The notes under the pieces: model-generated | The model's database searches: none | What the model was told of the DNA's origin: nothing | What the model saw: the letters and a program-made list of their open reading frames with translations, nothing else | Made by a program: the position numbers and the translations under genes | NCBI RefSeq assembly: GCF_017352135.1 | Contig: NZ_CP071454.1 | Coordinates: forward strand, 744,001-808,000 | Origin: Rhizobium lentis | GTDB taxonomy: Bacteria; Pseudomonadota; Alphaproteobacteria; Rhizobiales; Rhizobiaceae | DNA length: 64,000 bases | Direction of reading: 5' to 3' | Shown here: positions 1,501 to 17,178 of the stretch, one piece after another | Position numbering within the stretch: the first letter of the stretch is position 1 | How the letters are laid out: each line of letters starts with the position of its first letter

Positions 1501-1507
1501 CGACGCC

Positions 1508-2584
1508 ATGACTGCTACTGCGTCCCCTTTGGTCACTGTCGTCATCCCGGCTTACAATGCCGAGAAGACGCTTGTCGAAACATTGAGAAGCGTTTCTGAC
1601 CAGTCCTACGACAAGCTTGAAATCCTGGTGGTCGACGACGGATCGCGGGATCGCACCTTCGATCTTGCGCGCGACTATGGCCTGAGCGACGCCCGTGTCC
1701 GTGTTCTCACCCAGCACAATGGCGGCGTTGCGCGGGCGCGCAACCACGGCGTCAGGGAGGCGCGCGGCCTCTACATAGCTCCTGTCGATGCCGATGATGT
1801 GTGGCACCCCAGCAAGATCGAGCGCCAGCTCGAGGCGGTGCTGAAATTCCCCGGCGGAAACGGAGTTGCCTATAACTGGTACGCAGCGATCGACGAAAAC
1901 GGCATCATTTTCGGCCATTCACGCCCGGTCATGCATCAGGGAAACATCTTCGAACCGCTGCTGAGGGAAAACTTCATCGGCAATGGCAGCACGCCGCTGA
2001 TGCCGCGGGCGGAGATCCTTCGCTGCGGCGGCTACGACGCCGGCCTGCGTGACAGCGGCGCCGAGGGCTGCGAGGATCTCAAGCTTTATCTGGCGCTTGC
2101 CGAGACGCTGCCCTTCGCTTTGATCCCTGATTTCCTAACCGGCTATCGGTTCACCAGGGGAAACATGTCCAGCAATGCCCATAGGATGCTGAAATCCTAC
2201 GCCCTGGTGATGGCGCCGATCGCCGGCCGCTACCCGCATCTCGCGCGCGATATAGAGGCATCACAGTTCAACACGGCCTGCTGGTATTTCAAGAAGGCAT
2301 TTCACGACGACGACTATGCCCAGCTCAAAAAGCTGGCGCCGATGATGGCGAGAAAATACCCTTCGCGGCTGATCGTCCATGGACTACGACAGGGCTGGCG
2401 CCAGGTGAAACGCCAGGGCATCAAGATCGCAAAGCGCGTCCTGGGCAAGCCACCACGCAGCCCCAAAGCTCGCTTCACCGCGGCCATTCCGCAAGCCGGA
2501 ACGGCTTTTAGCGATCGCTTCGGGGGCCTGTCGGCCAGGGCAGCGACCGGCCCGAACTCAGCACGGGTGGCCGAGAATGAATAG
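1508..2584 (+). CDS. GT2 family glycosyltransferase
   Basis: A 358-residue GT-A fold enzyme. The N-terminus has the family hallmark VVIPAYNAEKTL, then LVVDDGSRDRT and the DxD-type metal and nucleotide-sugar site in PVDADDVWHPSKIE. A second motif, GCEDLKLYLALAE, fits the catalytic-base region. No membrane segment is evident, so it is probably a cytoplasmic or membrane-associated enzyme that adds one sugar to a lipid-linked glycan. The C-terminal 60 residues are basic and Pro/Ala rich. Its stop overlaps the start of the ABC exporter gene by 8 bp, which points to translational coupling and joint function in making and exporting one glycoconjugate. Donor and linkage cannot be read from sequence. 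Confidence 0.85.
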   Translation: MTATASPLVTVVIPAYNAEKTLVETLRSVSDQSYDKLEILVVDDGSRDRTFDLARDYGLSDARVRVLTQHNGGVARARNHGVREARGLYIAPVDADDVWHPSKIERQLEAVLKFPGGNGVAYNWYAAIDENGIIFGHSRPVMHQGNIFEPLLRENFIGNGSTPLMPRAEILRCGGYDAGLRDSGAEGCEDLKLYLALAETLPFALIPDFLTGYRFTRGNMSSNAHRMLKSYALVMAPIAGRYPHLARDIEASQFNTACWYFKKAFHDDDYAQLKKLAPMMARKYPSRLIVHGLRQGWRQVKRQGIKIAKRVLGKPPRSPKARFTAAIPQAGTAFSDRFGGLSARAATGPNSARVAENE

Positions 2585-4337
2585 GTTTCGAAAGCCCTCT
2601 TCCGCCAAGCCGGCCACCGCCTACAATTTGATCGTGGCAGCGCGGTACCGCGAGCTTCTGCAGCTCGTGCCGGCGCTGCGGCTGAAGATGACGGTGATGA
2701 TCATCCTCGGCATTCTCACCGGATTCTCGGAGATGGTCGGCATTACCTTTCTGGTGAGTCTCGTCTTTCTTCTCGGGCAGCCGGGGCCGGTTTCCGGCTC
2801 TGCCGTTGCAGGGCTTCCGGCTTTCTTCGGCGGCATCGACCTCAGTCTTTCGAAGCCGACGCTGATCGGCATCCTCATCGCCTCCATTCTCCTGCGGATT
2901 CTTCTGGGATGCGCCAATTCGCTGATATCAAGCGCGGTCAACCATAAGATCAGCGATCGCATGCGCGACCGCCTCTACGCCAAGGTCCTGACCATGCCCT
3001 TCCAGCGCTTTCAGGATTATGAGCGCAGCGATCTCATCAATGTGATCGCCACCGAAGCCTATGCGGTATCCTCGGCGCATGCGAGCCTCGTGCGTCTGGG
3101 TGTCAACTTCGGGACAATTGTCATCTTCGGCGTCGGCATGCTTGTCATGGCCTGGCCGATCGCCCTTCTCGGCCTCGCCTTCGGCTTCATCCATAATTTC
3201 GCATTGGGTCTCTTCGCCGGCGCCTACCGCCGTCTCGGCGCTTCGGCGCTGGCTGCCGTGGAAGCGTTGACGCAGCTGAGCTGGACAACGCTACAGACGT
3301 TGAAGGCCGTCAAAAGCTTCGGTCTCGAGGAGCGCCACCAGCAGCTCTTCGAGACACTTTCCAGCGAAGTCGGTCGGACCTGGCGCCGGTCGGACTGGAT
3401 GGGGGCAGCGACCTCGTTGCTAAGCGAAATCCTGACCTTCGGAGTCATCCTGACGATCATTCTGTCTTCGGAATTCCTGCCGGTGGATTTCAAGGCAGCG
3501 CTCTCGGCCACCATCCTTCTTTACAGGCTTCAGCCGCATATCAAGGGGTTCGACTCCCAGATTCTGCGCCTCTACGAGATGGAAGCATCCGTGCAGAACG
3601 TCCTGGCGCTGCTGTCGGAAAAGGATGACGTCAAGCAGGCCTCACAAGGGGCGCCGGTCACTCGCCTGGCGGAAGCCATCGTCTTCCACGATGTTTCGTT
3701 TACCTATGAGCACGCGACCGCGCCGGCGGTTCACAACCTCAACTTCTCGATCAAAGCGGGCGAAACAACGGCTCTGACCGGACCGAGCGGCTCCGGCAAA
3801 ACGACAATTCTGAACATGATACTCGACCTCAATCGACCGACGCGAGGTGCGATCACGATCGACGGCCGGGACCTGGAAACCGTTGACCGGTCCAGCTGGC
3901 TGCAACTGCTCTCGGTCTCGGGCCAGGACGTCGAGCTGATGGAAGGCACGGTCTTCGACAACATCCGCTTCCGTCGCGATATCTCCGAGCAGGACGTCCG
4001 TTGGGCCGCCGATGTGGCCTGCGCCACGGAATTCATCGAAAATCTGCCGGAAGGCTTCGACGAATGGCTGGGCGACGAGGCGGTGCGACTTTCAGGCGGA
4101 CAGCGGCAACGCATCGGCCTGGCGCGCGCGCTCGCCGGCAAACCTCAAATTCTGCTGTTGGACGAGGCCACGAGCGCGCTGGATGAAGATACCGAGATGC
4201 GGGTGTTCTCGGCGATAAGGGAAGATGCCGACAGAACACTGATCGTGGTCAGCCACCGGCCCGCGGTCGCCCGGCTGATGAGGAACCAGATCGATCTTCG
4301 CCCGCCAATGCTCGCCTCCACATCGAAGCTCGGGTGA
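2577..4337 (+). CDS. ABC exporter, fused permease/ATPase (MsbA/HlyB type)
   Basis: A 586-residue half-transporter. Residues about 35-320 form the six-helix transmembrane domain, with hydrophobic runs such as MTVMIILGILTGF and TLIGILIASILLRILL. The nucleotide-binding domain has Walker A GPSGSGKTT near residue 402, signature LSGGQRQRIGLARAL near 505, Walker B ILLLDEATSALDE near 525 and the H-loop VSHRPA. It probably works as a homodimer moving a lipid-linked glycan or glycolipid across the inner membrane. It is sandwiched between two GT2 genes with overlaps at both ends (8 bp and 4 bp), so its substrate is most likely the product of those enzymes and of the methyltransferase/deacetylase. Exact substrate unknown. 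Confidence 0.85.
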   Translation: MNRFRKPSSAKPATAYNLIVAARYRELLQLVPALRLKMTVMIILGILTGFSEMVGITFLVSLVFLLGQPGPVSGSAVAGLPAFFGGIDLSLSKPTLIGILIASILLRILLGCANSLISSAVNHKISDRMRDRLYAKVLTMPFQRFQDYERSDLINVIATEAYAVSSAHASLVRLGVNFGTIVIFGVGMLVMAWPIALLGLAFGFIHNFALGLFAGAYRRLGASALAAVEALTQLSWTTLQTLKAVKSFGLEERHQQLFETLSSEVGRTWRRSDWMGAATSLLSEILTFGVILTIILSSEFLPVDFKAALSATILLYRLQPHIKGFDSQILRLYEMEASVQNVLALLSEKDDVKQASQGAPVTRLAEAIVFHDVSFTYEHATAPAVHNLNFSIKAGETTALTGPSGSGKTTILNMILDLNRPTRGAITIDGRDLETVDRSSWLQLLSVSGQDVELMEGTVFDNIRFRRDISEQDVRWAADVACATEFIENLPEGFDEWLGDEAVRLSGGQRQRIGLARALAGKPQILLLDEATSALDEDTEMRVFSAIREDADRTLIVVSHRPAVARLMRNQIDLRPPMLASTSKLG

Positions 4338-5449
4338 CAACGATGGAGATGTCGCCCATGTCAGGAATTCCGGTGGCGGTCGTGATCCCCGCTTACAATG
4401 CCGGAGACTTCGTTGCCCAGACGCTTCAGTCCGTCATCGATCAGACCCACAAGGCGCTGGAGATCATTGTCGTCGATGACGGCTCGACGGACGAGACGGC
4501 GTCCATCTGTCGCCGCTTCGCCGCGGCCGATCCGAGGATCCAGATTCTGTCGACGGAAAACCGCGGCGTCGCGGCAGCGCGCAATACCGGGATCGAAGCA
4601 TCGAAGGCCGACTATATCGCCTTCCTGGACGCGGACGACCTGTGGCATCCCACTTATGTCGAAAGAATGCTGTCAGCGCTCCATCCCCTGCCCGCCAGCT
4701 GGGGAGCGGTATACGCCCTTCACCGTTTCGTCGATTCCGAGGGATATTGCACGAAGTCCGGCTCGTCGATCAACGCCCGGGAATCCATTCTCATTCGCCA
4801 TCTCGTCTTCCGCTTCGTCGGTAATGGCAGCGGCTTCATGGTGCGCCGCGCCGTGATAGACAAGATCGGCGGTTACGATCCGAGCTATGCCAATCGGGGA
4901 ATCGGAGGATGCGAAGACTTCGATTTCGAACTGCGCACCGCCGAGCATTTCAAGATCGAGGCGGTGCCGCTCGGGCTGGTGGGCTATCGCGTCCATTCCG
5001 CCGCCATGTCTGCCGACAGATCCCGAATGGCGCGATCGCTTCTGGCCGTGAATGAGCAATGTGTCGCCCGCAATCCGCAGCTTCCCGCTTTCGTTGTCAG
5101 CTGCGCCCGCGCCTCGGCTCACCTTTATGCATTCTCAAAATTTGCAGCTTTGAAAGATTGGGACAGCGCCGCTGCCTCGCTCAAGCAAATCTATCATCAT
5201 AGCCCGCTGCTTGCTGCCGGCGTCGTAACCAAACTGATGCTTTCAAAAGCCTTCAGAGGCGCAAACAGAGCGTGGTCAAGGGCCCGCCCGATCAGGCAAC
5301 AAAAGCAAAAGAAACTCAAGAAATTCGAGGAGATAAACCCGCTTATGCCGCTGGTCGGCGGATGGTCAGTTTTCCGCACGAAGGCGTTGTTCAGGCGCTT
5401 GTCGAAGATCGACCGGTGTGACGGGGACACCGCGACTGCGAAAAGATAA
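4334..5449 (+). CDS. GT2 family glycosyltransferase
   Basis: A 371-residue GT-A enzyme paralogous in layout to the one at 1508: VVIPAYNAGDFVAQTLQSV, IIVVDDGSTDETAS and the metal site FLDADDLWHPTYVE, followed by GGCEDFDFELRTAE. The longest frame starts at a GTG (4334) overlapping the stop of the ABC exporter; ATG codons at 4343 and 4361 are possible alternatives and would shorten the protein by only a few residues. The C-terminus is strongly basic (RQQKQKKLKKFEE), consistent with membrane association. Last gene of the first plus-strand operon; a strong terminator hairpin lies about 230 bp downstream. Confidence 0.84.
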   Translation: MTTMEMSPMSGIPVAVVIPAYNAGDFVAQTLQSVIDQTHKALEIIVVDDGSTDETASICRRFAAADPRIQILSTENRGVAAARNTGIEASKADYIAFLDADDLWHPTYVERMLSALHPLPASWGAVYALHRFVDSEGYCTKSGSSINARESILIRHLVFRFVGNGSGFMVRRAVIDKIGGYDPSYANRGIGGCEDFDFELRTAEHFKIEAVPLGLVGYRVHSAAMSADRSRMARSLLAVNEQCVARNPQLPAFVVSCARASAHLYAFSKFAALKDWDSAAASLKQIYHHSPLLAAGVVTKLMLSKAFRGANRAWSRARPIRQQKQKKLKKFEEINPLMPLVGGWSVFRTKALFRRLSKIDRCDGDTATAKR

Positions 5450-6919: not shown

Positions 6920-7168
6920 CTAATGTCTTTTTACGCTTACCTGGGGAACGGGGGAACTCAATTCAGCCAGTTCCCTGGTCAGCCCCTCCCCGACTTCCTG
7001 CTTTACCGCCTCAAGAGCAAGATCGAGGCAATTCGTCGCGAATTGCAGTTTGACGTCCTGAGCGACCTGCCGCGCATAGGCGATCATCCGCGCCAGCGCG
7101 ACCAATTCGTCCAGACCTTCTTCCGCCCCTGGATCCAAACTTATTTTAGCAACCGATGTCACGCCCAT
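6920..7168 (-). CDS. Small hypothetical helical protein, 82 aa
   Basis: The frame runs from 7243, but the ATG at 7168 (MGVTSVAKISLDPG) is preferred because GGAGAA lies 8 bases before it. The product is soluble, rich in Ala, Leu, Val and Glu, with a long predicted amphipathic helix (about residues 18-65). No family recognised. It lies 102 bp downstream of tfuA on the same strand, so it could be the last member of the YcaO-TfuA operon or an independent gene. An overlapping plus-strand frame of 91 codons looks less gene-like. Confidence 0.5.
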   Translation of the reverse strand: MGVTSVAKISLDPGAEEGLDELVALARMIAYARQVAQDVKLQFATNCLDLALEAVKQEVGEGLTRELAELSSPVPQVSVKRH

Positions 7169-7270
7169 GGCCATTTCTCCAACGAATTGAAGAAATGATA
7201 CGCGGACCGACATGGACGAGCCCGTGAAAAAAGCGTGACACAACTTTCGGTGACCGTCGCCGTTCTCGAT

Positions 7271-7972
7271 TCACAATGCAGACCGTGTGGAGAACGAGGT
7301 TTCATGCAAATGCCAGGTCAAATCGGCATTCACGCGAACATCGTCGGCTGACTGTACCGCTTTCAGCAATTCCAAAGCATCGATGCGTTTCTGATCGACG
7401 GAATGCGAGACAAGCGCGGCCAGAAGGTGCGGGCGATCCTCTTCGGCTGTGCATTGCTCGACAATTGCCCGCCATGTCCGCCTCTTGAAGAATATTGCGT
7501 TGGCGGCATCTTCGATGACCTGGCGCAATCCTCCTGGGAGCAATTCATTCCTTTCCATTGCATCGAGCGTGGCGCTGACATTGACGAGCGGTATTGTCAG
7601 CGGCTTGCCGCCGAGCGCGATCGGCGCGTGCACGAGCGCGACGGCAGCATCATCGACCAGCCGGCCTGTGCGGTAGTCTTCGAAAATGCGGCCGATCCCG
7701 ATCATACCGAACGAATGACATTCCGCAGCGCGCAACGCGCCCATACTTGCCGCCCCGAGGACCGTGACGCCAAGCGAAAGAGCATACAGAATTTCCTTAT
7801 GCCAGACCGGCGCAGCATATTCAAAGCCGCCGTCGATCAGGCCGATGACATTGGCACCCTGTTCCACAGCAGCCAGAACATCGCCCTGCGTGGCTGGCGG
7901 CAAGACGCGTATAGCCCCGCCGGCAAGTGAAGCCGCATCGGGAAGACTGGGACCTGCGAAAATGATCTTCAA
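7271..7972 (-). CDS. tfuA: TfuA-like protein
   Basis: A 233-residue protein with the TfuA core: KIIFAGPSLPDA at the N-terminus, RVLPPATQGDVLAAVEQGA, IGLIDGGFEYAAPVWHKEIL, and GASMGALRAAECHSFGMIG(I)G. TfuA proteins partner YcaO enzymes; the family is named from the trifolitoxin locus of R. leguminosarum, and in characterised pairs TfuA helps install backbone thioamides. The start is a TTG overlapping the YcaO stop (TTGA), indicating translational coupling; the frame extends far upstream, but that part is a shadow of YcaO. The partner YcaO, a candidate peptide substrate and two regulators precede it in one compact operon. Confidence 0.85.
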   Translation of the reverse strand: MKIIFAGPSLPDAASLAGGAIRVLPPATQGDVLAAVEQGANVIGLIDGGFEYAAPVWHKEILYALSLGVTVLGAASMGALRAAECHSFGMIGIGRIFEDYRTGRLVDDAAVALVHAPIALGGKPLTIPLVNVSATLDAMERNELLPGGLRQVIEDAANAIFFKRRTWRAIVEQCTAEEDRPHLLAALVSHSVDQKRIDALELLKAVQSADDVRVNADLTWHLHETSFSTRSAL

Positions 7973-9192
7973 AACCCTATCGCTCTCGCAAGAGCCCTCG
8001 TTCCAAACCGGCGTGCACGCGGCCCTTCCGGATTTTCGAGCTGAGGGATAACGACCTTGACGACGCCAAAGGGAAGCGTGTCGTCGCTGAGACGTACCGC
8101 GATCACCGAACTGATCCCTTTGTTTCGCAAAGCGTCCAGCACATGCCGGAGCAAATGCGCCAGGTCCCCACGTTCCGGCGTTCGCTCGCGGAGAGGACGG
8201 GCGGCCGGCGATGCGGGAGCGGCGTCGAAGGCTCGCCGCATCAGTGGCGGCAAGGATCTTGAGAAGGTGGCGGGAGAAATATCGTCCCTGGCGCCGCTGA
8301 TATAAGTGAGCCGCGATTGCGCGGCTTCCGTTACCGCCCGAATAGCCGCGCGCACGGGAGCCGGATGGGCTCCCGTGCCGCCGGTCACCTCGACAAGGCG
8401 AATATCCCTGCCGCCATGGCGATCCCAAGGGCCGGGAACGGAATCCGTGGGACCCAGCATGGCGGTAAAACAAGGAATGGCGATGTCGCTGGTGATATCG
8501 AAGAGCCTAAGTGTCAATCCCGCCGCTTCGATCTTATCGATCAACCCGTTCAGGGCGCCGTCCTGAAAGCCGCGCGGTTCGACGCAGCCGGCATAACGAT
8601 CCGCTTCCCCGCCAACCTGCCACAGCACATGCGCATCCCGCTCGATCCGCTCGAGCACACCATGGAAAACGGCCTCCTCGACATTGTTTCCCGATGCCAG
8701 GCCGTCCGATGACATCCAGTATCGCGCATCGCGTGTGCGGTCGAGCAGCACCGCTTCAAAAGGGACATAAATCTTCTCACCGCTGAGAATATTGATGCCG
8801 GCCACCCATTCGGTCTCCTCGTCTGGTCCAAGATCGGGTTTGTGGACGGCGATCAGGCAGTTCAGCGTGTCGATCTTTTGCCCCATCCCCTGCAGACCGG
8901 ATGAGGTGCTACGGACGAGATCGACGAATGGTTCGCCGGCAACTGCCCGCTCCAGGGCCTCCATGACGGTCGACACTTTGGCATCGACATCGGTCAGGCC
9001 CTTCCCTTGAGCGATCACGATTGAGCGCGAATTCGGAGTGTAGGCGCACCAGACAGGAATTCCGACCTCATCAAGCCCGGTATGTCGCGCAACCCTGGTA
9101 ATGCCGAATCGAGCTAAAAAAGGCTCGACGCGGGAAAGCGTTTCCCGCGGCGATATGATCCTGTCGGTATATATGGACTGGTCCGCCAGAAT
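7969..9192 (-). CDS. YcaO family protein (ATP-dependent peptide backbone-modifying enzyme)
   Basis: YcaO enzymes phosphorylate backbone amides to form azolines, or thioamides when paired with TfuA. Family landmarks: SPRETLSRVEPFLARFGITR near the N-terminus, TGLDEVGIPVWCA, NSRSIVIAQGKG, KVSTVMEALERAV, and the ATP-site motif SGNNVEEAVFHGVLERIERD. No proline-rich C-terminus is seen (it ends ARAIGF). The start is anomalous. The conserved N-terminus reads back in frame to the TGA stop of the 70-aa gene (9201-9199), with no ATG, GTG or TTG between. The first conventional start, GTG 9018, would remove about 60 conserved residues. An ATT at 9192 or CTG at 9189 is the nearest near-cognate start; stop-codon readthrough or a broken N-terminus are alternatives. 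tfuA overlaps the stop. Confidence 0.8.
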   Translation of the reverse strand: MLADQSIYTDRIISPRETLSRVEPFLARFGITRVARHTGLDEVGIPVWCAYTPNSRSIVIAQGKGLTDVDAKVSTVMEALERAVAGEPFVDLVRSTSSGLQGMGQKIDTLNCLIAVHKPDLGPDEETEWVAGINILSGEKIYVPFEAVLLDRTRDARYWMSSDGLASGNNVEEAVFHGVLERIERDAHVLWQVGGEADRYAGCVEPRGFQDGALNGLIDKIEAAGLTLRLFDITSDIAIPCFTAMLGPTDSVPGPWDRHGGRDIRLVEVTGGTGAHPAPVRAAIRAVTEAAQSRLTYISGARDDISPATFSRSLPPLMRRAFDAAPASPAARPLRERTPERGDLAHLLRHVLDALRNKGISSVIAVRLSDDTLPFGVVKVVIPQLENPEGPRARRFGTRALARAIGF

Positions 9193-9198
9193 GCCGGT

Positions 9199-9411
9199 TC
9201 AGCCGTCGACGTGACCGGACAGCGCCACCTGCGCCGACGAAACGGCGACGGCCAAATCCACGCCCTTCACGAATGTGCCGCCAGTTTTGCGCAGATCGCT
9301 GACAGTCGCCAGTTCTGCCGTCGGATTGAGCGGCTTGACCGTGCCCGCGTCGAGATCGGCGAGCCAAAGACCTGCCTCGCCCGGTATTCCTATAATGACA
9401 GCTTTCGCCAT
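9199..9411 (-). CDS. 70-residue peptide, candidate RiPP precursor
   Basis: Starts at ATG 9411 behind a good ribosome binding site (GAGGGG, five bases upstream) and ends with TGA at 9201-9199. The N-terminal part (MAKAVIIGIPGEAGLWLADL) is hydrophobic and ordered-looking; the C-terminal part is Ser/Val/Ala/Gly rich and ends ALSGHVDG. It has no cysteine. Its place, 19 bp after the SARP-like gene and immediately before ycaO, is where precursor genes commonly sit, so I infer it is the substrate of YcaO-TfuA, with an N-terminal leader and a C-terminal core. No similarity to trifolitoxin's TfxA was recognised. It could instead be a small leader-binding or structural protein, or a domain once fused to YcaO, since both share one frame. 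Confidence 0.65.
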   Translation of the reverse strand: MAKAVIIGIPGEAGLWLADLDAGTVKPLNPTAELATVSDLRKTGGTFVKGVDLAVAVSSAQVALSGHVDG

Positions 9412-9430
9412 GTATGCCCCTCAGCTATTG

Positions 9431-11266
9431 TTAAAAACCGGCCTTCAACAGGCCCTCCCGATATAGCTCCTTTTGCCAATGCTCCTTGAAGGGAACGATG
9501 GCGAGCCACTTCTCGACGTCGAACACCGGGTTGATGCTTTCGGCGCGCTGCCGATGAGAGAGTGCCCGTTTCCGATCGCCGATCATTGCGCAACTGGCCG
9601 CGGCGATACGATGGGCCGGCGCTTTGTCTTTCATCGCCTCGACATATGCGATGGCCTCCTCATACTGTTCCAGGAAGAAACTTGCTCCCGCAGCACACCA
9701 GAGATAGGCATCAGGTGCGATCGGATTGAGCGAAATTGCCTTTCTGATCTTGGCAAGCGCGTCGCCGGGGCGAGATGCATGCACGAGCGTGTCGGCATGG
9801 CTATAGATGACATCGGCAAAATGCGGGCTGAGCTCTTCCGCCAGATCAAGTGCCGCAACACTGGCATCGACATCGCCGAGATAAAGTTTGGTGACGCCGA
9901 GCTCGCGATGCCCTGCCGCCGATGACGGATCCCGCTCGATGGCGCGAAGCGCATGCTGCTCGGCCAGATGCAGCAGTTCGTTGTTTCCCTGCGCCGTCAC
10001 GAGCCATTCGCTGGTGAAGGTTCTCGCCAGCCCGGTGAAGGAAGGAGAAAAATCCGGCTTGTGCGAGAGCGACTGCTTGAATGCCTTTCTTGCCCGGCGG
10101 ATATGCGGCAAGGTCAGCTTGCTCATCAGGCTCGAGCCGACGAGATAAGAATGATAGGCTTGCGGGTTAGCTTCGAAACGCAGCCGCTCTTCCTCGTTTT
10201 CAGCCAGTTCGTTCGCCACCGACAAGGTCAACTGCTGCGCGATCAGGCGTCTCTGCCGCGGCAACGTATCACGCGTCATCGCAAAGCGATTGGCCCAGAT
10301 GATCTCGTCCGTGGGGAAGTAGATCAGCTGGGCGAACAAACCTTCTTCGGAAAGTCGGGTATCCAGGAGATAGGCGATCGAGTGCCGGGCGACGACCGCC
10401 GCCTTTTCGGAATCGCGCCGGATCTGTCCCGCCGTATGCGGCGCAACGATGGAAATGTTTCTGAGCGCGCAGAGTTCGATCGTGACGTCTTCGATGAGCG
10501 CGTTGGCAAGAGCAAGCCCGGCATCGGCATGCTTCGATGTCGGGGGGAGCAGCACCAAGCGAGGCAGGATCAGCGGCGCCGGACGTTCGATCTCGGTTGA
10601 TTGACCGGGCTCGGGACGCTTCACCTCCACCCGCGTCTGGCCGTCGTCATTTGGCAATCTTTCGCCGATTAATGAGCCGCCGGATAGCTGATGCAGCAAT
10701 GCCCTGACCTGCTCATCCTTTGGATTCCGCTCGAGGATTTGCAGGGCGGCGCTGGAAATGATGCGCGCCGCGCCGGGCCTTTGCACATCGGGCAACACTT
10801 CCAGCAATGCTTGACGCAATTGCAGCGCATGGGCGTCCCGCTGCGTCCTGATCCACGCATCGATCGGCTTTGTCGCCGGCTTAATGTTTCCGATGAAACC
10901 GCGCTGTGTCAACTCGGCGATCGCGTGCAGCCGATCCAGCGGCGAAGCAGCGGCCTTAAAGACATCCAAATCACAGGAAACCACCTGCCTGTTGAGGCGA
11001 ACTGTCGTGGCAGTGAAATCGAAGACTATTTCGGCGCGTCCGCCATCCATCTCGCGGATGCGGGACAGCATTTTGCGCAAATTGAGCCGCCCCAACTCCG
11101 GCTCGACGTCGCTCCATAGAAACTGGGCCAGTTCGTGACGACTGATCTCATGGCTCGCACCGGCATAGATGTGGGCCATCATTAACAGACCCTTGATCGG
11201 ATAGCGAACCGGCTCGCCATTCGTCTCGGTCAGCCGCAGATCGCCGAATGTCTGCAGATGAAACAC
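9431..11266 (-). CDS. SARP-like transcriptional regulator with bacterial transcriptional activator and TPR-like regions
   Basis: A 611-residue protein. Residues 1-95 resemble an OmpR/SARP winged-helix DNA-binding domain (FHLQTFGDLRLTETNGEP, then YPIKGLLMMAHI, LNLRKMLSRIRE). Residues about 95-205 fit the bacterial transcriptional activator domain that follows in SARPs. A middle segment (about 225-350; LPRLVLLPPTSK, IAYLLDTRLSEEGLFAQLIY) resembles the TolB/cyclase-associated domain of CadC-like regulators. The C-terminal 250 residues hold TPR-like helical repeats. The start is GTG 11266 with GAGG seven bases upstream, and the XRE gene ends 9 bp before it. It most likely activates the peptide-ycaO-tfuA genes that follow (inference from position). 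No membrane segment seen. Confidence 0.75.
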   Translation of the reverse strand: MFHLQTFGDLRLTETNGEPVRYPIKGLLMMAHIYAGASHEISRHELAQFLWSDVEPELGRLNLRKMLSRIREMDGGRAEIVFDFTATTVRLNRQVVSCDLDVFKAAASPLDRLHAIAELTQRGFIGNIKPATKPIDAWIRTQRDAHALQLRQALLEVLPDVQRPGAARIISSAALQILERNPKDEQVRALLHQLSGGSLIGERLPNDDGQTRVEVKRPEPGQSTEIERPAPLILPRLVLLPPTSKHADAGLALANALIEDVTIELCALRNISIVAPHTAGQIRRDSEKAAVVARHSIAYLLDTRLSEEGLFAQLIYFPTDEIIWANRFAMTRDTLPRQRRLIAQQLTLSVANELAENEEERLRFEANPQAYHSYLVGSSLMSKLTLPHIRRARKAFKQSLSHKPDFSPSFTGLARTFTSEWLVTAQGNNELLHLAEQHALRAIERDPSSAAGHRELGVTKLYLGDVDASVAALDLAEELSPHFADVIYSHADTLVHASRPGDALAKIRKAISLNPIAPDAYLWCAAGASFFLEQYEEAIAYVEAMKDKAPAHRIAAASCAMIGDRKRALSHRQRAESINPVFDVEKWLAIVPFKEHWQKELYREGLLKAGF

Positions 11267-11275
11267 GATCCATCC

Positions 11276-11701
11276 TCAGCCGTTTAAAACCGGATCTTGC
11301 AACTCATTGTCGACATCAGGCAACCCTGCAACCGCGAGGCTTTTGGCCAATGCCACCAGTTTTTGCCTGATATTCGGATCCTCGATGGCGATGAACGCCT
11401 TGTTGAGCGCCAGCCCCTCCTTCGATGACAAAAACTTGTTCAATTCGCTCGTCTCGCCTTCGATCGGCCCGGAACCGCCGTTCTCGAAGAAAAAGCCGAC
11501 CGGCACGCGAAGAATCTCGGAAATGCGCTGAAGACGGCTGGCGCCAATCCGGTTCGTCCCTTTTTCGTATTTCTGAATCTGCTGGAAGGTAATGCCCAGA
11601 AGTTCGGCCAAACCATGCTGGGTCATCCCGAGCGTCTTTCGCCGAACTCTCACGCGGTTGCCAACATAGACGTCGATTGAATTCGGCGATTTGGCCTTCA
11701 T
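11276..11701 (-). CDS. XRE family HTH transcriptional regulator
   Basis: A 141-residue cytoplasmic regulator. Residues 10-66 form a Cro/CI-type helix-turn-helix (RVRRKTLGMTQHGLAELLGI, FQQIQKYEKGTNRIGASRL), followed by a C-terminal helical region common in rhizobial proteins of this group. First gene of the minus-strand operon leading through the SARP-like regulator to the YcaO-TfuA genes. A role as repressor or phase/density-linked controller of that operon is inference. Its upstream region is A+T rich and shared divergently with the gene at 12047. Confidence 0.85.
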   Translation of the reverse strand: MKAKSPNSIDVYVGNRVRVRRKTLGMTQHGLAELLGITFQQIQKYEKGTNRIGASRLQRISEILRVPVGFFFENGGSGPIEGETSELNKFLSSKEGLALNKAFIAIEDPNIRQKLVALAKSLAVAGLPDVDNELQDPVLNG

Positions 11702-12046
11702 GTGAATAAGTCTCCCGCTTGATCAGCACGCGCCGCTGTATAATGGAGAGTTTAACCAAGAATGCAACTAAAAGTAAATATTTTATAAGGATTTTTTTCC
11801 GCACCGCAGACAGTAGAAAACACCCCTGTGGACTACACTAGAAAACAACCCGTGTCGTGGCACCGGCGATTATCGAAGTCGAAGCCCCAGGCGTTTCGCC
11901 GAAATCTATGGCGCGCGCTCGTCGCTGGCGACGGGCCCAAGGCGCCATGTTGTCGACGCCAAACCAAAGATATTTAACGGATGGATGTATACTGCTGCAT
12001 TAAGACAGCGCGATCGAAACCCTTCTCGCGTACCGGAGAAGATAAG
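11702..12046. other. Divergent intergenic region
   Basis: About 345 bases between the XRE gene and the hypothetical membrane protein, if the TTG at 12047 is the latter's start. The part near the XRE gene (11745-11800) is A+T rich and would hold its promoter. No clear operator palindrome or RNA was identified. Confidence 0.45.
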
Positions 12047-12892
12047 TTGCCTGAGAATTCGTCGCCCGCATATGCGAAACAGCCAGTGGGAAAACCGCGG
12101 ATTCCCGCGGTTTTCTGGTTGTTGTTGACGATCTCCCTGTCGCTCATCATGGGAACCGTGCTTCTTTCGAACGACATGAAGCACTTGAAGACCATCGGCC
12201 GTTATTTCGGCTACGAACTCTTTCCTCATGAGGTCAAGCTGCCGCCGCCCACGGCGCTTCCGCGCCCGATGCCTCCTGCCTCCGTCACGCTTCCCTTGCA
12301 TGCCATCGAGCCGCCTGTCGCGCAGACCGCATCGATTTTTCTACGCACGTGGCGCATATCGGGAGCCGCAATGTGTGCAGCACTGCGCGATGCCGGCGTC
12401 CAAACCAGCGAATGGGCGGCGGCAAGCTTCAACGCCGAGACCTTCGAATGCTTTTTCGAGCACAGCGGCAAGCGCGAAAAAGATCAGCTTCCCAGCTCCA
12501 TTTTCGTCATCGTTCGCGGCGAAGCCGCCGGCACGATCAACAACATGCGCGTGAAGATCGTTAATCCTCAGACCGACCAAAATGGCCAGCTTGACCCGAA
12601 CATCCTGCGAATTTTCGAAATCATGCTGCAGCAACCGCAGTGGCTCGATTTTCATGAGGCGTTGAACGCAATCAAGAATTTAAGGGACATCAAGGAAGAC
12701 GGCTTCGGCGCCAGCATCAGCTTCAGTCGCGAGGTACTCAATCCCGGGCGTTACAATTTTACACTCTCCCTGGATGCGAGCTCGGGACCCCAGAAAAGAA
12801 CGAGAAGCTATTTTTCCGACAGAACATGGCTTCCATCGCCGGAGCCGAGCGGCAAGACCGCGCCACCGCCGGCGCCGGCCCCAAGGCAATGA
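12047..12892 (+). CDS. Membrane-anchored hypothetical protein (possibly DUF6030-like)
   Basis: A 281-residue protein with a single N-terminal membrane anchor (IPAVFWLLLTISLSLIMG) followed by a Pro-rich linker (PPPTALPRPMPPASV) and a periplasmic domain beginning near FLRTWRISGAAMCAAL. The C-terminus is also Pro/Ala rich. TTG 12047 is chosen because GGAGAAG lies six bases upstream; an ATG at 11981 in the same frame would add 22 residues. I think it belongs to a rhizobial family of unknown function, DUF6030 being a guess. It is divergent from the XRE-SARP-YcaO operon, and nothing ties it functionally to that operon. Confidence 0.65.
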   Translation: MPENSSPAYAKQPVGKPRIPAVFWLLLTISLSLIMGTVLLSNDMKHLKTIGRYFGYELFPHEVKLPPPTALPRPMPPASVTLPLHAIEPPVAQTASIFLRTWRISGAAMCAALRDAGVQTSEWAAASFNAETFECFFEHSGKREKDQLPSSIFVIVRGEAAGTINNMRVKIVNPQTDQNGQLDPNILRIFEIMLQQPQWLDFHEALNAIKNLRDIKEDGFGASISFSREVLNPGRYNFTLSLDASSGPQKRTRSYFSDRTWLPSPEPSGKTAPPPAPAPRQ

Positions 12893-12934
12893 CACCCCAA
12901 CAAGCAGCGGGGCCGCATGCGATAAACCGGCCTG

Positions 12935-13309
12935 TCAAGCCATACGGCTTGCATCGTCGTGATGCCTTGCCAGAATTTTGTAGAGTTCTTTCAGACTGTC
13001 CCCGCTCGGTCGCTCGCTGCTCTCTCCACCTGCCAGACGCCAGACGCGCTCGACATTAAGATCCTGCTTAACCTGCGCGAGGTCTTCGTTCAATGCGCGG
13101 ATGGCCATCGCTGATCGACGCAGGCGCCAGGAAGCTCTGGCGAGCGCTGCCAGAAGGGTGAGTACGATGCCGACGGCCCCGAATGCAATGGCGGCGAACT
13201 GCCGGTCATCGAGAAGAGAAAGATCGTTTCGAACAGTCGTCATAAAAAAAGCGGCATTTTGAAATGCCATATGAAAATAGCTCATCGGATAGCTAAACCA
13301 ATCGTCCAT
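12935..13309 (-). CDS. Hypothetical membrane protein with cytoplasmic coiled coil, 124 aa
   Basis: Contains one clear membrane segment (AAIAFGAVGIVLTLLAALA) followed by a basic stretch (RASWRLRRSAM) and a helical, probably coiled-coil region (IRALNEDLAQVKQDLNVERVW). By the positive-inside rule the C-terminus would be cytoplasmic. The start ATG 13309 is preferred to the GTG one codon earlier because GGAGG lies seven bases before it. It is convergent with the upstream hypothetical gene and divergent from the GH10 gene. No family recognised. Confidence 0.6.
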   Translation of the reverse strand: MDDWFSYPMSYFHMAFQNAAFFMTTVRNDLSLLDDRQFAAIAFGAVGIVLTLLAALARASWRLRRSAMAIRALNEDLAQVKQDLNVERVWRLAGGESSERPSGDSLKELYKILARHHDDASRMA

Positions 13310-13516
13310 CACGGGCCTCCCCCCGAGCAGTTTATAGGTTTGAATAGGGCGCGAAGTCTAGCTGATGCTGACAATATCCCCATGGGCGAAAGTATATTTG
13401 AGGTTGCAATACTCTTTCGAAGCGAACTCAAATCTCATGATGGAATGGCCGCCGACGAAGCAGGCTTCCGCAAATTTCATGGCGGACATGAAAAAAGCCA
13501 ACAGCGAGGGAATTGA

Positions 13517-14590
13517 ATGAACAGAAGACGTTTCCTCGCCGCGACTCCGCTCGCGCTGTTGTATGTCAGTGCGGAGACGGTGCTGGCCAAACTGCCTTCG
13601 GAAGCGAGGCTGCGCGCCCTTGCCGACAGCAAGTCGTTTCGATTCGGATCGGCGATCGATCCGCAAACTATCAGCGATCCGGTCGCGTCCGAACTCTATG
13701 TCGAGAACGTCAATTCGATAACGCCGCGCAACGACCTGAAGTGGAGCGCGACGGAAAAGAGCCCCGGCGTTTTCTCGTTCGCGAGCGCCGACAGATTGGT
13801 TGCATTCGCCCAAAAAAACAACATGAGGGTTTATGGGCATACACTGATCTGGTATCGCGTCCCGGACTGGGTGTCTGAGATCGCCGATGCGAAGGCCCTT
13901 CGGACGGCCATGGACCGTCATATAAAACAGGTTGTCACTCGCTATAAGAGGTCGATCGATGCTTGGGATGTGGTGAATGAACCGTTGGAATATGATGCAC
14001 CGGACCTGCGGGATTGTATTTTCCGACGCCATCTTGGCGACGATTACATTCGCATGAGCTTCGATATGGCGCATGAGGCCGATCCGGATGCGACGCTGGT
14101 TCTCAACGAAACGCATCTTGAGAAAAAATCTAATGTTTTCGAACAAAAACGCGCGCACATCCTGAAAATCGTCGAAGATCTCGTCGCCAGGGAGACACCA
14201 ATCCATGCGGTGGGGTTGCAGGCGCATTTCCGCCCGGGCCTCGACCGGATAGATCCGGAGGGAATGGGACGATTCTGTGCGGCTCTAAAGGAGATGGGAA
14301 TCGGTGTCTACATCACCGAACTCGACGCATCCTGCCACTTTCTGAAACGCGACCAAGGCTTCAGGCAGGCCGCCTACGCCGATATTTTCCGCGAGGTGAT
14401 TACGGTGGCGGCCGAGCATGGCGACTTGAAAGGTGTCACCGTATGGGGCATGTCGGAAAAATACGGCGTTCCTGATGAAAAAGAGGCCGACGCCAATGGA
14501 GCCTGCACTAAGCGCGTTAATCTTTACGATGAAAACAATGCGCCGCGAAGTTCAGTTGACGGCATCAGGCGAGCAATAGAGGCGATGTGA
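13517..14590 (+). CDS. GH10 endo-1,4-beta-xylanase-like glycanase, exported
   Basis: A 357-residue protein with a twin-arginine-like signal sequence (MNRRRFLAATPLALLYVSAE) and a GH10 TIM barrel. Family signatures: ITPRNDLKW, HTLIWYRVPDW, the acid/base Glu155 in DAWDVVNEPLEYDAP, and the nucleophile Glu268 in GVYITELDASCH; also VTVWGMSEKYG near the C-terminus. Length fits a single catalytic domain with no binding module. It opens a long polysaccharide operon, so its role is more likely trimming or releasing the strain's own polymer in the periplasm than plant xylan degradation (inference). It is followed after 31 bp by a GT4 gene. Confidence 0.85.
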   Translation: MNRRRFLAATPLALLYVSAETVLAKLPSEARLRALADSKSFRFGSAIDPQTISDPVASELYVENVNSITPRNDLKWSATEKSPGVFSFASADRLVAFAQKNNMRVYGHTLIWYRVPDWVSEIADAKALRTAMDRHIKQVVTRYKRSIDAWDVVNEPLEYDAPDLRDCIFRRHLGDDYIRMSFDMAHEADPDATLVLNETHLEKKSNVFEQKRAHILKIVEDLVARETPIHAVGLQAHFRPGLDRIDPEGMGRFCAALKEMGIGVYITELDASCHFLKRDQGFRQAAYADIFREVITVAAEHGDLKGVTVWGMSEKYGVPDEKEADANGACTKRVNLYDENNAPRSSVDGIRRAIEAM

Positions 14591-14621
14591 TGCGCAAGAC
14601 AACGGAGACGTCGATAGATTC

Positions 14622-15773
14622 ATGAAAAAGGCGGTTATCTATGTGGAAAAATTTCTGCCTGCCAGCCAGGCATTTGTTCTCAATCAGGCGGAAGCGTTTC
14701 GTTCGTTCGAAGCTGAAATTCTAGCCGGCACGCGGATTTCTTCGGCCCATACAAAAAAGTCTACTGTTCCGGTTCACGACATCCGTCGGTCTCCGATCGC
14801 CCGTGCCGGCGAACTGATTTTGAAAATTCCACAGATCGGCCTGCCTTTCCTCTTTCCCGCGATCGGTGAAGCCGATCTCGTTCACGCGCATTTCGGCAAG
14901 AACGGCTATGTCATCGGTCCCTTGGCTCGGGCCGCCGGCAAGCCGCTCGTCACGACGTTTCACGGCTTCGACGCAACCTATCGCGGCGATCCGAAAAAGC
15001 CGGGCGGCTTCAATCAGGTGCGCTTCTTCGCCAAGGGCCGGAGCGAGATGGCAGGCTGGAACAGCTGGAACATCGCCGTTTCCGATTTCATCCGAGACCG
15101 GCTGCTAGCGCTCGGTTTTCGCGCCGACCGCGTCTTTCGCCATCATATCGGCATTGATCTCGATCTGTTCAAAATGGAACCCCGTCCTCGAAAAAAAGGG
15201 CTGGTGGTTTCCATCGCCCGCTTTGTCGACTATAAGGGCCATCGCTTCATGATCGACGCGCTTTCGCGCGTGGCGGCAGCGGGCACGCCCGTCGAATTCA
15301 TCATGGTCGGACAGGGACCATTGAAGGAGGAAATCGAAGCCTTGGCGCGTCGTTCCTTGCCAAGCGTCACGATCCATGAAAATCTGTCGCAGACGGAGAT
15401 AAGGGATCTGCTCGCCAGCGCGCAGCTCTATCTTCATGGCAGCGTGACCCTCGACAATGGTCACGCGGAAGCATTCGGGCTCGCCAATCTCGAGGCCGAG
15501 GCTGTTGGTACTCCGGTCGTCGCATTTCGCTCGGGAGGCGTGGGCGAAGCGATCGAAGAGGGGAAAACTGGTTATCTCGTGGAGGAGCGGGATGTCGCAG
15601 GCATGGCGGAAGCGGTCGGCAGGCTGCTCAACGACCAGGGTCTGTGGACGTCCTTCAGCGCCCGGGCACCGCTTCTGGTGGCCGAGCGTTTCGACATACG
15701 TCGCCAAACGGAGATGCTCGAGGACTATTACAGTTCCGTGCTAGACGAATATGCCAGCCGGGGTCGGACTTGA
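14622..15773 (+). CDS. GT4 family glycosyltransferase
   Basis: A 383-residue GT-B enzyme. The C-terminal domain carries the GT4 pattern: VVSIARFVDYKGH, FIMVGQGPLKEEIEAL, and the E-x7-E donor-site region EAFGLANLEAEAVGTPVVA. The N-terminal acceptor domain has VHAHFGKNGYVIGPLA and TTFHGFDATYRGD. It probably transfers a sugar from an NDP donor to the lipid-linked repeat unit in the cytoplasm. Its stop overlaps the start of the acetyltransferase (TGATG), so the two are coupled. Confidence 0.87.
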   Translation: MKKAVIYVEKFLPASQAFVLNQAEAFRSFEAEILAGTRISSAHTKKSTVPVHDIRRSPIARAGELILKIPQIGLPFLFPAIGEADLVHAHFGKNGYVIGPLARAAGKPLVTTFHGFDATYRGDPKKPGGFNQVRFFAKGRSEMAGWNSWNIAVSDFIRDRLLALGFRADRVFRHHIGIDLDLFKMEPRPRKKGLVVSIARFVDYKGHRFMIDALSRVAAAGTPVEFIMVGQGPLKEEIEALARRSLPSVTIHENLSQTEIRDLLASAQLYLHGSVTLDNGHAEAFGLANLEAEAVGTPVVAFRSGGVGEAIEEGKTGYLVEERDVAGMAEAVGRLLNDQGLWTSFSARAPLLVAERFDIRRQTEMLEDYYSSVLDEYASRGRT

Positions 15774-16279
15774 TGGTGCAGACAGGAAAGAAGCCGAAGT
15801 GGGGACTGAACGTATTTCGGCCCCTGCGGAACGGAATCGTGAAGGCCAAGTGGCTTTATTATACGAAATTCTGGGGAATGGACATCGATCCCACAGCCAG
15901 CTTTTCGCTCAGCGTGCGGTTCGACAAGACCAACCCGAAGGGTTTGCACATCGGCGCCGAAACCTATGTCGCCTTTGAAGCCGCCATCTTGACCCACGAC
16001 CTCACACGCGGGCTCTACCTTCACACAAGAATCGGCAAGCGCTGCTTCATCGGAGCCCGCAGCATCATCCTGCCCGGTGTCGAAATCGGCGACGAATGCG
16101 TCATCGGCTCCGGTTCGGTGGTGACCAAGAGCGTGCCCCCGCGTTCGCTTGTGGCCGGCAATCCCGCAAAGATAATCCGCAGCGACATCACGATCATTTC
16201 GCGTTACGGACGCATGGCCCGCGAGGACGATACGGTCACGCAGATCGTAGCGCAAAGGCCGACTGGAGAAGCACGATGA
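15773..16279 (+). CDS. Hexapeptide-repeat acyltransferase (WbbJ/serine acetyltransferase type)
   Basis: A 168-residue left-handed beta-helix acyltransferase. Hexapeptide repeats are visible around [37 protein letters not shown] and [17 protein letters not shown], ending in the typical [10 protein letters not shown]. It most likely O-acetylates a sugar of the repeat unit using acetyl-CoA. The ATG at 15773 overlaps the GT4 stop; the open frame continues upstream but only as a shadow. The stop overlaps the next gene (ATGA). Confidence 0.85.
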
Positions 16280-17178
16280 AGATGTTTGCCTATCGTGGGA
16301 AACACGAAAATTTTGGCGACGAACTGAACCACTGGCTCTGGGAGCGTCTGCTGCCCGGCTTCTTCGACGAGGACGAAGGTCAGCTCTTTCTCGGCATCGG
16401 CTCGATCCTTTACGACAATTTCGACCCCAAAATGCAGAAGATCGTCTTCGGCTCGGGTTATGGCGGCTACACCAATCCGCCGAAAGTCGACGACAACTGG
16501 ACCTTCTATTTCGTGCGCGGAAAGAAGACCGCAGAAATCCTCGGCATCGATCCGAGCTATGCGATCGGCGATTCGGGCATCCTGACGCGCAGCTGCTGGG
16601 ACGCCAAAAGCGTCGAGAAGCGTTATCCCGTCTCCTTCATGCCGCACTACGAAAGCGCGATGTACGGCAGCTGGGACAAGGTCTGCGATCTCGCCGGGAT
16701 CCACTATATCGATCCCCGCTGGTCTGTGGAAAAGGTGCTGACCGAAATCAGCGCGTCGCAGAAGGTTGTCTCTGAGGCGATGCACGGCTGCATTATCTCC
16801 GATGCGCTGCGCGTTCCGTGGCGGGCGATCCGGCCGATCGCGCCGGGCAACCGAGCCAAGTGGTATGACTGGGCGAGCGCGCTCGATCTGGAGATCGATT
16901 TCGATCCGATCGGTCCGTCGAACCTCGTCGAGGTCGGCGCGTCGCTGGTGCGGAAAAACACATACCTGTTGAAGAACATAACGTTCCGTCATCGCCGCAT
17001 CCGGCAGTTGACCGGCAACTATGTTCTCGGCTCGACGGTCAAGACGCTGCAGCGGGTAGCCGAAAAGCCGGGGCAGCTCAGCTCCGACGAGGCTATCGTA
17101 AGAGCGCACGAGAAAATGCTGGTCGAGCTCGATCGGCTGAAGCAAGATTTTTCCAAGAAGGCGGTAAGCGCGCTTTGA
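16276..17178 (+). CDS. ExoV-like polysaccharide pyruvyl transferase
   Basis: A 300-residue protein resembling ExoV-type ketal pyruvate transferases: N-terminal [49 protein letters not shown], and the late conserved segment [19 protein letters not shown] with the family's Ser-x-x-His pattern. These enzymes move pyruvate from PEP to a sugar, giving acidic ketals. The start is ATG 16276, overlapping the acetyltransferase stop by four bases. A second pyruvyl transferase follows 1.7 kb downstream, so the polymer may carry two pyruvate groups. Confidence 0.82.

Follow-up and report, generated by a model that had tools for sequence, protein, structure and literature searches.

A YcaO-TfuA locus and its candidate precursor peptide

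The locus described here lies in a 64,000-nt stretch of the Rhizobium lentis genome (GCF_017352135.1, contig NZ_CP071454.1, positions 744,001-808,000 of the forward strand; "the window" below, whose numbering applies to all coordinates given without a locus name). It consists of six genes, all on the minus strand, that follow each other in the order XRE, SARP, PEP, ycaO, tfuA, and DN. The first encodes an XRE-family regulator of 141 amino acids (aa) with a Pfam HTH_3 match (11276..11701), and the second a SARP-like regulator of 611 aa (9431..11266) for which Pfam, AlphaFold2, and a fold search indicate a C-terminal TPR superhelix. PEP (9199..9411, stop codon included) is a candidate precursor peptide of 70 aa whose ATG is preceded by the Shine-Dalgarno-like sequence GAGGGG and whose last residues, LSGHVDG (64-70; 9202..9222), form the putative core. 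Downstream follow ycaO (7969..9189, most likely starting at a CTG codon, see below) and tfuA (7271..7972, 233 aa). The gaps are 9 bp between XRE and SARP and 19 bp between SARP and PEP, and ycaO and tfuA overlap by 4 bases. A first-pass annotation of the window had described this one-strand packing from XRE to TfuA with the same spacings, which we confirm and extend by DN as a sixth gene. To compare loci between genomes, we fetched 118 of them, chosen for holding YcaO or PEP; handles such as L051 refer to individual loci and those such as G145 to genomes.

Conservation of the PEP family and its C-terminal core

PEP has no match in Pfam or NCBIfam at E ≤ 1, and a phage origin was discarded with zero matches in phage records. 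A search with the single sequence recovered 50 homologues at E ≤ 1e-3, and a profile search, in which scoring was limited to the 7992 candidates with the most shared words, gave 136 matches at E ≤ 0.01, 120 of them listed. Residues G8, G11, L15, G23, T24, A54, and G66 are invariant across 39 aligned sequences; when 70 sequences are compared, G8, G11, L15, and G23 remain invariant and G66 is present in at least 90%. The C-terminal core takes the general form [S/A/G]-G-x-[V/F/L/M/Y]-[D/E], of which the window peptide has one copy (SGHVDG) and some distant relatives have two to five exact tandem copies. Repeats of this kind are found as four SGKLE units in L148, four GGFFE units in L162, three GGYMD units in L153, and three GLHE units in L147, while L051 has six RMD units, five of them with the glycine.

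We counted cores in 227 distinct PEP sequences (134 database proteins plus the copies from fetched loci and the window), of which 202 are of the window type, by searching for the pattern xGx[VILMFYSW][DEHN] after residue 52. The pattern occurs at least once in 187 of the 202 window-type peptides and at least twice in 27, with a maximum of five. The 15 that do not fit include the GLHE repeats of L147, a truncated database fragment ending in SGHVDG, and several peptides with other ends. A second type of PEP, beginning with MSKMM or MSRMM and carrying AFSG-x-aromatic repeats, is represented by 25 sequences recognized by pattern; second-type peptides are encoded directly before YcaO-TfuA, without a SARP of their own, at L053, L054, L107, L114, and L120.

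Among 19 local copies of close relatives, omega is 0.137 for PEP and 0.049 for residues 64-70, and for 50 remote copies (encoded away from ycaO, see below) it is 0.222. PEP is thus under purifying selection, and its core is conserved, not diversifying. Judged from its sequences, PEP is a real precursor family of ribosomally synthesized and post-translationally modified peptides (RiPPs), with a predicted conserved leader (residue 1 to about 61) followed by the C-terminal core.

Co-occurrence of PEP with one clade of YcaO

The distribution of PEP follows that of its neighboring enzyme. In a sample of 120 genomes from the genus, PEP (E ≤ 0.001) is present in 112, and a YcaO at least 44% identical to that of the window (clade A) is present in exactly the same 112 genomes, with neither found in the remaining eight. 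At E 1e-20, seven of these eight are without any YcaO match; in the eighth (G213) the only one is a 37% relative. Among 151 genomes of the family, 24 encode PEP and all 24 have a YcaO at E < 1e-60, a threshold that was chosen after the table had been seen. The reverse case in this sample is G145, with a YcaO beyond that threshold (40% identity), no PEP, and an arrangement that resembles the second YcaO-TfuA locus described below; 14 further genomes with weaker YcaO matches (1e-20 to 1e-60) have no PEP at all. In a sample of the order, where YcaO was searched in PEP-positive genomes, PEP was found in 11 of 199 genomes, eight of them outside the family of the window, and all eight have a related YcaO (seven of these eight loci were fetched). 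Carriers among 68 loci with named hosts include R. johnstonii 3841, R. leguminosarum, R. phaseoli, R. tropici, S. meliloti 4H41, Shinella, and Hoeflea. The first of these is a symbiont used in the laboratory and has a local PEP. The suggestion of the first-pass annotation that the 70-residue peptide is the precursor of this very locus is therefore borne out by its homologues, by the tandem cores, and by this co-occurrence.

These data also bear on whether PEP might be an unmodified small partner protein, e.g., an antagonist or cofactor of SARP, that is linked to YcaO merely by shared regulation. Such a role would suit the long and well-conserved leader and the existence of SARP-PEP units without an adjacent YcaO, but PEP genomes always hold the YcaO clade (112 of 112 in the genus sample), tandem repeats confined to the C-terminal motif point to a precursor, and PEP-YcaO pairs without SARP do occur (L053, L054). 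We consider this explanation very improbable.

PEP and the enzymes can be encoded apart

Of the 121 YcaO loci of clade A, one of which is partial, 91 encode PEP on the same strand at a distance of up to 1.2 kb, and 30 lack it in this range. A remote PEP exists in every one of the 26 genomes that have no local copy, compared with 26 of the 86 that do have one, and this link is strong when descent is ignored (Fisher p 2.5e-11). The first-pass annotation had named a 70-mer absent or unrelated beside other YcaO-TfuA pairs of the clade as speaking against its reading; instead, PEP stands beside YcaO at most loci, and every genome lacking a local copy has PEP elsewhere. A quick tree was built from 66 YcaO sequences, its long branches flagged and two family genomes labeled as remote by hand (later borne out); in it, the 16 rows without local PEP imply at least six changes of state. 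Loss and gain cannot be told apart by the tree alone; fragments of SARP and PEP persist at several peptide-less loci, and a remnant of the core (SGHVDG or degenerate) stands just before ycaO in L134, L135, and L137-L139, so the local PEP was lost there. At 10 peptide-less loci, YcaO and TfuA are under purifying selection (omega 0.23 and 0.19, respectively; 0.18 for YcaO across 18 loci with PEP). We infer that a PEP encoded elsewhere can serve YcaO-TfuA as a substrate in trans.

The remote PEP matches, 54 of 57 of which were fetched, occur in three arrangements: SARP-PEP by itself, SARP-PEP divergent to a solo TfuA, or SARP-PEP divergent to an operon of second-type PEP, YcaO, and TfuA (L107, L114, L120). 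The arrangement with a solo TfuA, where the fetched DNA contains no full YcaO, is seen at L072, L073, L077, L084, L085, L090, L091, L101, and L109, and L078 is a decayed copy of this arrangement. L100 and L102 have an extra SARP-like open reading frame (ORF) in their first 1.6-1.9 kb, upstream of their remote SARP-PEP unit.

YcaO and TfuA resemble thioamidating enzymes

YcaO matches PF02624 with 221 bits and TfuA matches PF07812 with 136 bits. The mechanically called YcaO ORF starts at a GTG at 9018, inside the conserved fold, and so misses the conserved N-terminus; the stretch from the PEP stop codon (TGA, 9199-9201) to that GTG contains no ATG, GTG, or TTG, while the open frame reaches 7969-9198 and directly abuts PEP. 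We compared the 38 codons before a GITR-like anchor in 34 rows of the close clade (the window, L033-L045, and L122-L141). An in-frame CTG is found 27-31 codons before the anchor in 32 of the 34 rows, in the window at 9187-9189, 9 bases past the PEP stop, and only four rows (L036, L037, L040, L045) have a canonical start further than 20 codons upstream of the anchor. YcaO therefore most likely starts at this conserved CTG, bearing in mind that CTG is a common codon. Two other starts were set aside: an ATT is less likely than the CTG, given that it is replaced by GTT, GTC, CAT, or TCT where CTG stays, and an ATG 17 codons before the anchor, used as the start in the NCBI record of L242, is present in 13 of the 34 rows and reads ATA in the window. 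Upstream of that ATG, the residues YSDR are retained through synonymous changes in distant relatives, which argues that translation starts before them. Allowing just ATG, GTG, and TTG as starts thus loses the N-terminus of YcaO, and gene calls need correcting in this respect.

PEP and YcaO share one reading frame in the window, and their frames differ in relatives including L126 and L129, so that they are two genes; stop-codon read-through or a split YcaO could be ruled out on the same ground, together with the existence of PEP alone elsewhere. The closest solved structure by sequence is MJ1094 (6pe3; E 4e-32), aligned over residues 11-393 of YcaO. The stretches MEALER, ERIERDA, and TEAAQSR, which we take to belong to the ATP site, match in this alignment. 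With the conserved CTG start, this speaks for an intact gene, most likely, and does not support the concern of the first-pass annotation that ycaO might be broken.

The best NCBIfam family of YcaO is TIGR03266 with 197.4 bits (cut-off 365), compared with 89 bits for SagD (cut-off 219), and that of TfuA is NF033432 with 175.3 bits (cut-off 235.2). By these bit scores, and with MJ1094 as the nearest solved sequence, YcaO is nearer to thioamidating than to azoline-forming enzymes. The earlier reading of the two proteins as a thioamide pair thus stands insofar as both score best against families of McrA-glycine thioamidation, if below the curated cut-offs. YcaO-TfuA pairs thioamidate, according to passages of PMC6511847 and PMC8120280, and the core glycine of PEP is near-invariant, which is why we predict a thioglycine in the core.

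PEP could also be a substrate of YcaO-TfuA with a product other than a thioamide (e.g., an azoline or amidine) or with a modification at a residue other than the core glycine. YcaO enzymes install several modifications, as passages of PMC13063428 describe, and serine precedes the core glycine in 189 of 246 counted cores. However, TfuA is part of the locus, thioamidation families give the best scores for both proteins, no E1-like protein or dehydrogenase exists at the locus of the window or was seen among recurrent neighbors of at least 80 aa in 41 loci (see below), and the residue before the glycine varies (S, G, A, E, N) whereas Gly66 is invariant in 39 of 39 aligned sequences. A different modification is therefore, in our judgment, quite improbable.

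The SARP/TPR regulator is paired with PEP

The 118 fetched loci contain 108 PEP ORFs, and 99 of these have just upstream a SARP ORF of more than 1.2 kb, whose end lies anywhere from 8 bases into PEP to 99 bases ahead of its start; the nine others are second-type PEPs and broken copies. The pairing persists away from the enzymes, with an upstream SARP in 50 of 51 loci that have PEP but no full YcaO, compared with TfuA in 11. SARP and PEP hence form a unit.

Among 17 aligned relatives of SARP, five match BTAD (PF03704) and four weakly match Trans_reg_C, neither of which is found in the window protein at E 0.1; these matches in a minority of relatives suggest that the N-terminal part is DNA-binding-like. 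The AlphaFold2 model of SARP (mean pLDDT 74.9) retrieves the TPR fold in a fold search, covering mainly residues 403-610. Searches with Foldseek and VIA-align gave generic TPR matches, with no peptide-sensing regulator of the RRNPP type among the matches listed. The last residues of SARP, EGLxKAGF, are strongly conserved; a hairpin resembling a terminator, located where the gene ends, was rejected, since only the protein end is conserved and the RNA is not.

Contig C3 in the genome of the window (G000) encodes a further YcaO-TfuA pair, which is 38% identical to the first. At this second locus (C3 98365-99537; L001 and L058, also L059, L060, and L068), a conserved peptide of 41-47 aa ending in HALKFR or HALRFR lies between the SARP/TPR gene and ycaO. 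It has 18 homologues, from Rhizobium where named, and looks like a second precursor family of the same architecture.

Neighboring genes and other features of the locus

The ORF that follows tfuA, DN (6920..7213 or 7243; 97-107 aa), is part of the YcaO-TfuA locus; neither Pfam nor NCBIfam yields a match or a function for it at E ≤ 1. DN is present in 46 and the XRE gene in 60 of the 67 fetched loci with a full YcaO. Upstream of the XRE gene, an alignment of nine sequences shows a stretch at 11738..11785 (minus strand), starting AAATATTTACTTTTAGTTGCATTCTT, that is near-identical across the nine relatives despite diverging surroundings and is possibly a promoter or operator; a promoter scan listed no site there.

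We surveyed the neighborhood of 41 diverse loci by clustering ORFs of at least 80 aa and considering groups that recur in at least three loci, not all of which were annotated. The groups comprise YcaO (37 loci), SARP (33), TfuA (27), XRE (15), PEP (12), and DN (8, with a likely DN relative in 3 more), and two further groups, in 11 and 9 loci, consist mostly of ORFs antisense to the TfuA/YcaO and XRE genes. Genes for transporters, immunity, or proteases are not general partners across the 41 loci, and the locus of the window has no linked exporter or immunity gene. ORFs resembling ABC ATPases occur in 5 of the 41 loci at varying positions.

In the window, the locus is embedded in a polysaccharide region (1472-5446 and 11981-17172) with glycosyltransferases, an ABC transporter (2409-4331), a GH10 glycosidase, a pyruvyl transferase, and a DUF6030 protein. 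A functional link to this cluster was rejected, as its genes flank only L033-L040 when 25 YcaO loci and 13 remote loci are scanned; the same scan gave weak ABC-transporter similarity at L046, L053, and L072.

A predicted thioamidated peptide as a possible intracellular ligand or exported antimicrobial

We propose that the locus would make a RiPP from the leader and C-terminal core of PEP. YcaO and TfuA would replace the backbone oxygen at the core glycine by sulfur, giving thioglycine at Gly66, and may do so also for a PEP encoded elsewhere. The modified peptide would then stay in the cell and act as a ligand that reports the state of the system to its SARP/TPR regulator; with tandem cores, the ligand would come in multivalent form or in multiple doses. 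Three observations suggest an intracellular ligand for the TPR regulator: the core is conserved, SARP and PEP form a unit, and neither exporters nor proteases are general partners. That PEP is thioamidated by YcaO-TfuA appears quite likely, and we favor the near-invariant Gly66 as the site with more caution. The whole chain of a thioamidated, non-exported peptide that is coupled to SARP falls, in our estimate, slightly short of even. More tentative is the modified peptide as the ligand of SARP itself, our leading reading of its role but one that we rate at clearly less than even odds. Doubtful, finally, is the most specific version, in which an intracellular, second-messenger-like ligand would bind the TPR groove of SARP through its modified SG-x-hydrophobic-acidic core and so connect the activity of YcaO-TfuA (i.e., the supply of sulfur and ATP) to transcription.

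SARP-type activators commonly control antibiotic clusters, and PEP could accordingly be an anti-rhizobial bacteriocin like trifolitoxin whose thioamidated form is cleaved and exported, for the most part with machinery encoded elsewhere, with SARP and XRE controlling its production. This would be in line with several thioamidated RiPPs being bioactive and with clusters that can be without transporters, as passages of PMC8120280 report. The NCBI record of one SARP/TPR gene (L242 1565-3412, NZ_CP022567.1) names it "peptide antibiotic resistance protein", a phrase for which a search of the open-licence literature together with Rhizobium found no papers; this name sits on a TPR protein. Transporter genes adjoin the locus in one clade (L046-L051), where an AcrB-type RND pump (4 loci), an HlyD/CusB-type adaptor (6), and a TetR regulator (4) follow just downstream of YcaO-TfuA-DN, with an NMT1-type solute-binding protein (5) close by; at L047 (8012-11199), adaptor and pump lie directly downstream of DN. 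We read these genes, like the ABC ATPases, as neighbors by descent because they are confined to one clade (the pump set in 6 of the 41 loci) or scattered (5 of 41), although a part in export or resistance is possible in L046-L051. An exported antimicrobial is further at odds with a system that is near-universal in the genus sample (112 of 120) and whose core is conserved, and with the lack of a general exporter, immunity, or protease partner. We therefore consider it unlikely, and a ligand of the SARP/TPR regulator would fit better than a bacteriocin. The first-pass annotation had seen a possible antimicrobial here, which finds no support in the lack of general partners, the conserved core, and the tie of the peptide to a TPR regulator; its statement that transporter, protease, and E1-like partners are absent holds for the locus of the window, and clade L046-L051 departs from it with pump and adaptor.

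Several observations count against an intracellular thioamidated ligand. The pump set beside L046-L051 would suit an exported product, and export elsewhere could proceed through an unlinked transporter. The adjacency of SARP and PEP could reflect just the activation of PEP by SARP, and six YcaO loci with a second-type or broken PEP have no SARP before it. The thioamide is predicted from sequence, and both YcaO and TfuA score under the NCBIfam equivalog cut-offs for McrA-glycine thioamidation proteins. When descent is allowed for, the link between a missing local and a present remote PEP reduces to six independent pairs, with 5.2 going the expected way and none the other (median sign-test p 0.06). 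In the deepest relatives (L160, L161, L165, L168, L173), the C-terminus of PEP has no SG core or has the core elsewhere, and the structure model of PEP is of low confidence (pLDDT 57.7).

Relation to known systems

Among the closest counterparts are the thiovarsolins, for which precursor, YcaO, and TfuA (varA-varY-varT) suffice for the basic product, while the MFS gene is dispensable and the precursors of this type have one to five imperfect core repeats, according to passages of Santos-Aberturas 2019 (PMC6511847). The locus of the window likewise combines a precursor with YcaO and TfuA and has relatives with varying numbers of core repeats. In contrast, thiovarsolins are Actinobacterial and have the core APR with a Pro-Arg thioamide, a distinction drawn from their description and not from alignment of the precursors; passages of PMC6511847 mention no paired TPR regulator. 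The closest families and structure (TIGR03266, NF033432, and MJ1094, 6pe3) belong to archaeal YcaO-TfuA systems that also target a glycine, that of McrA, although their substrate is a large enzyme instead of a peptide and the scores obtained here are below equivalog cut-offs.

An antiSMASH survey counted over 500 TfuA-related clusters in Rhizobium at a time when all known YcaO-TfuA products came from Actinobacteria (Malit 2021, in passages of PMC8120280). The locus of the window probably belongs to that set. The Rhizobium precursors described in the same passages are berninamycin-like and Nif11-like and differ from PEP, and the words "SARP", "repeat", and "trifolitoxin" are absent from the main text of PMC8120280. 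TfuA clusters in Rhizobium were thus known before. A search of the open-licence literature, supplements aside, found no account of PEP as a precursor, of cores in tandem, or of a pairing between PEP and SARP.

Trifolitoxin is an anti-rhizobial azole peptide made by YcaO-type chemistry. PEP shares with it the rhizobial host and this chemistry and differs, with TfxA compared by description only, in the absence of azole partner proteins at the locus or among recurrent neighbors and of cysteine from the core of the window. RRNPP pairs of Firmicutes consist of a TPR-containing DNA-binding regulator encoded beside a short peptide. The SARP-PEP unit has the same pairing of peptide gene and TPR regulator, yet it differs in the predicted thioamidation of the peptide, the SARP-like regulator, and the Gram-negative host.

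For one large clade, these results name a likely substrate of YcaO-TfuA and the residue that is probably modified, tie this substrate to a regulator, and indicate that enzymes and substrate can be encoded apart. The question of what rhizobial YcaO-TfuA systems produce thereby becomes a test with three genes. Should the peptide prove to be the ligand of its regulator, backbone thioamides would have gained a new use, and a RiPP and a TPR regulator would form a Gram-negative pair with a modified, non-exported peptide signal.

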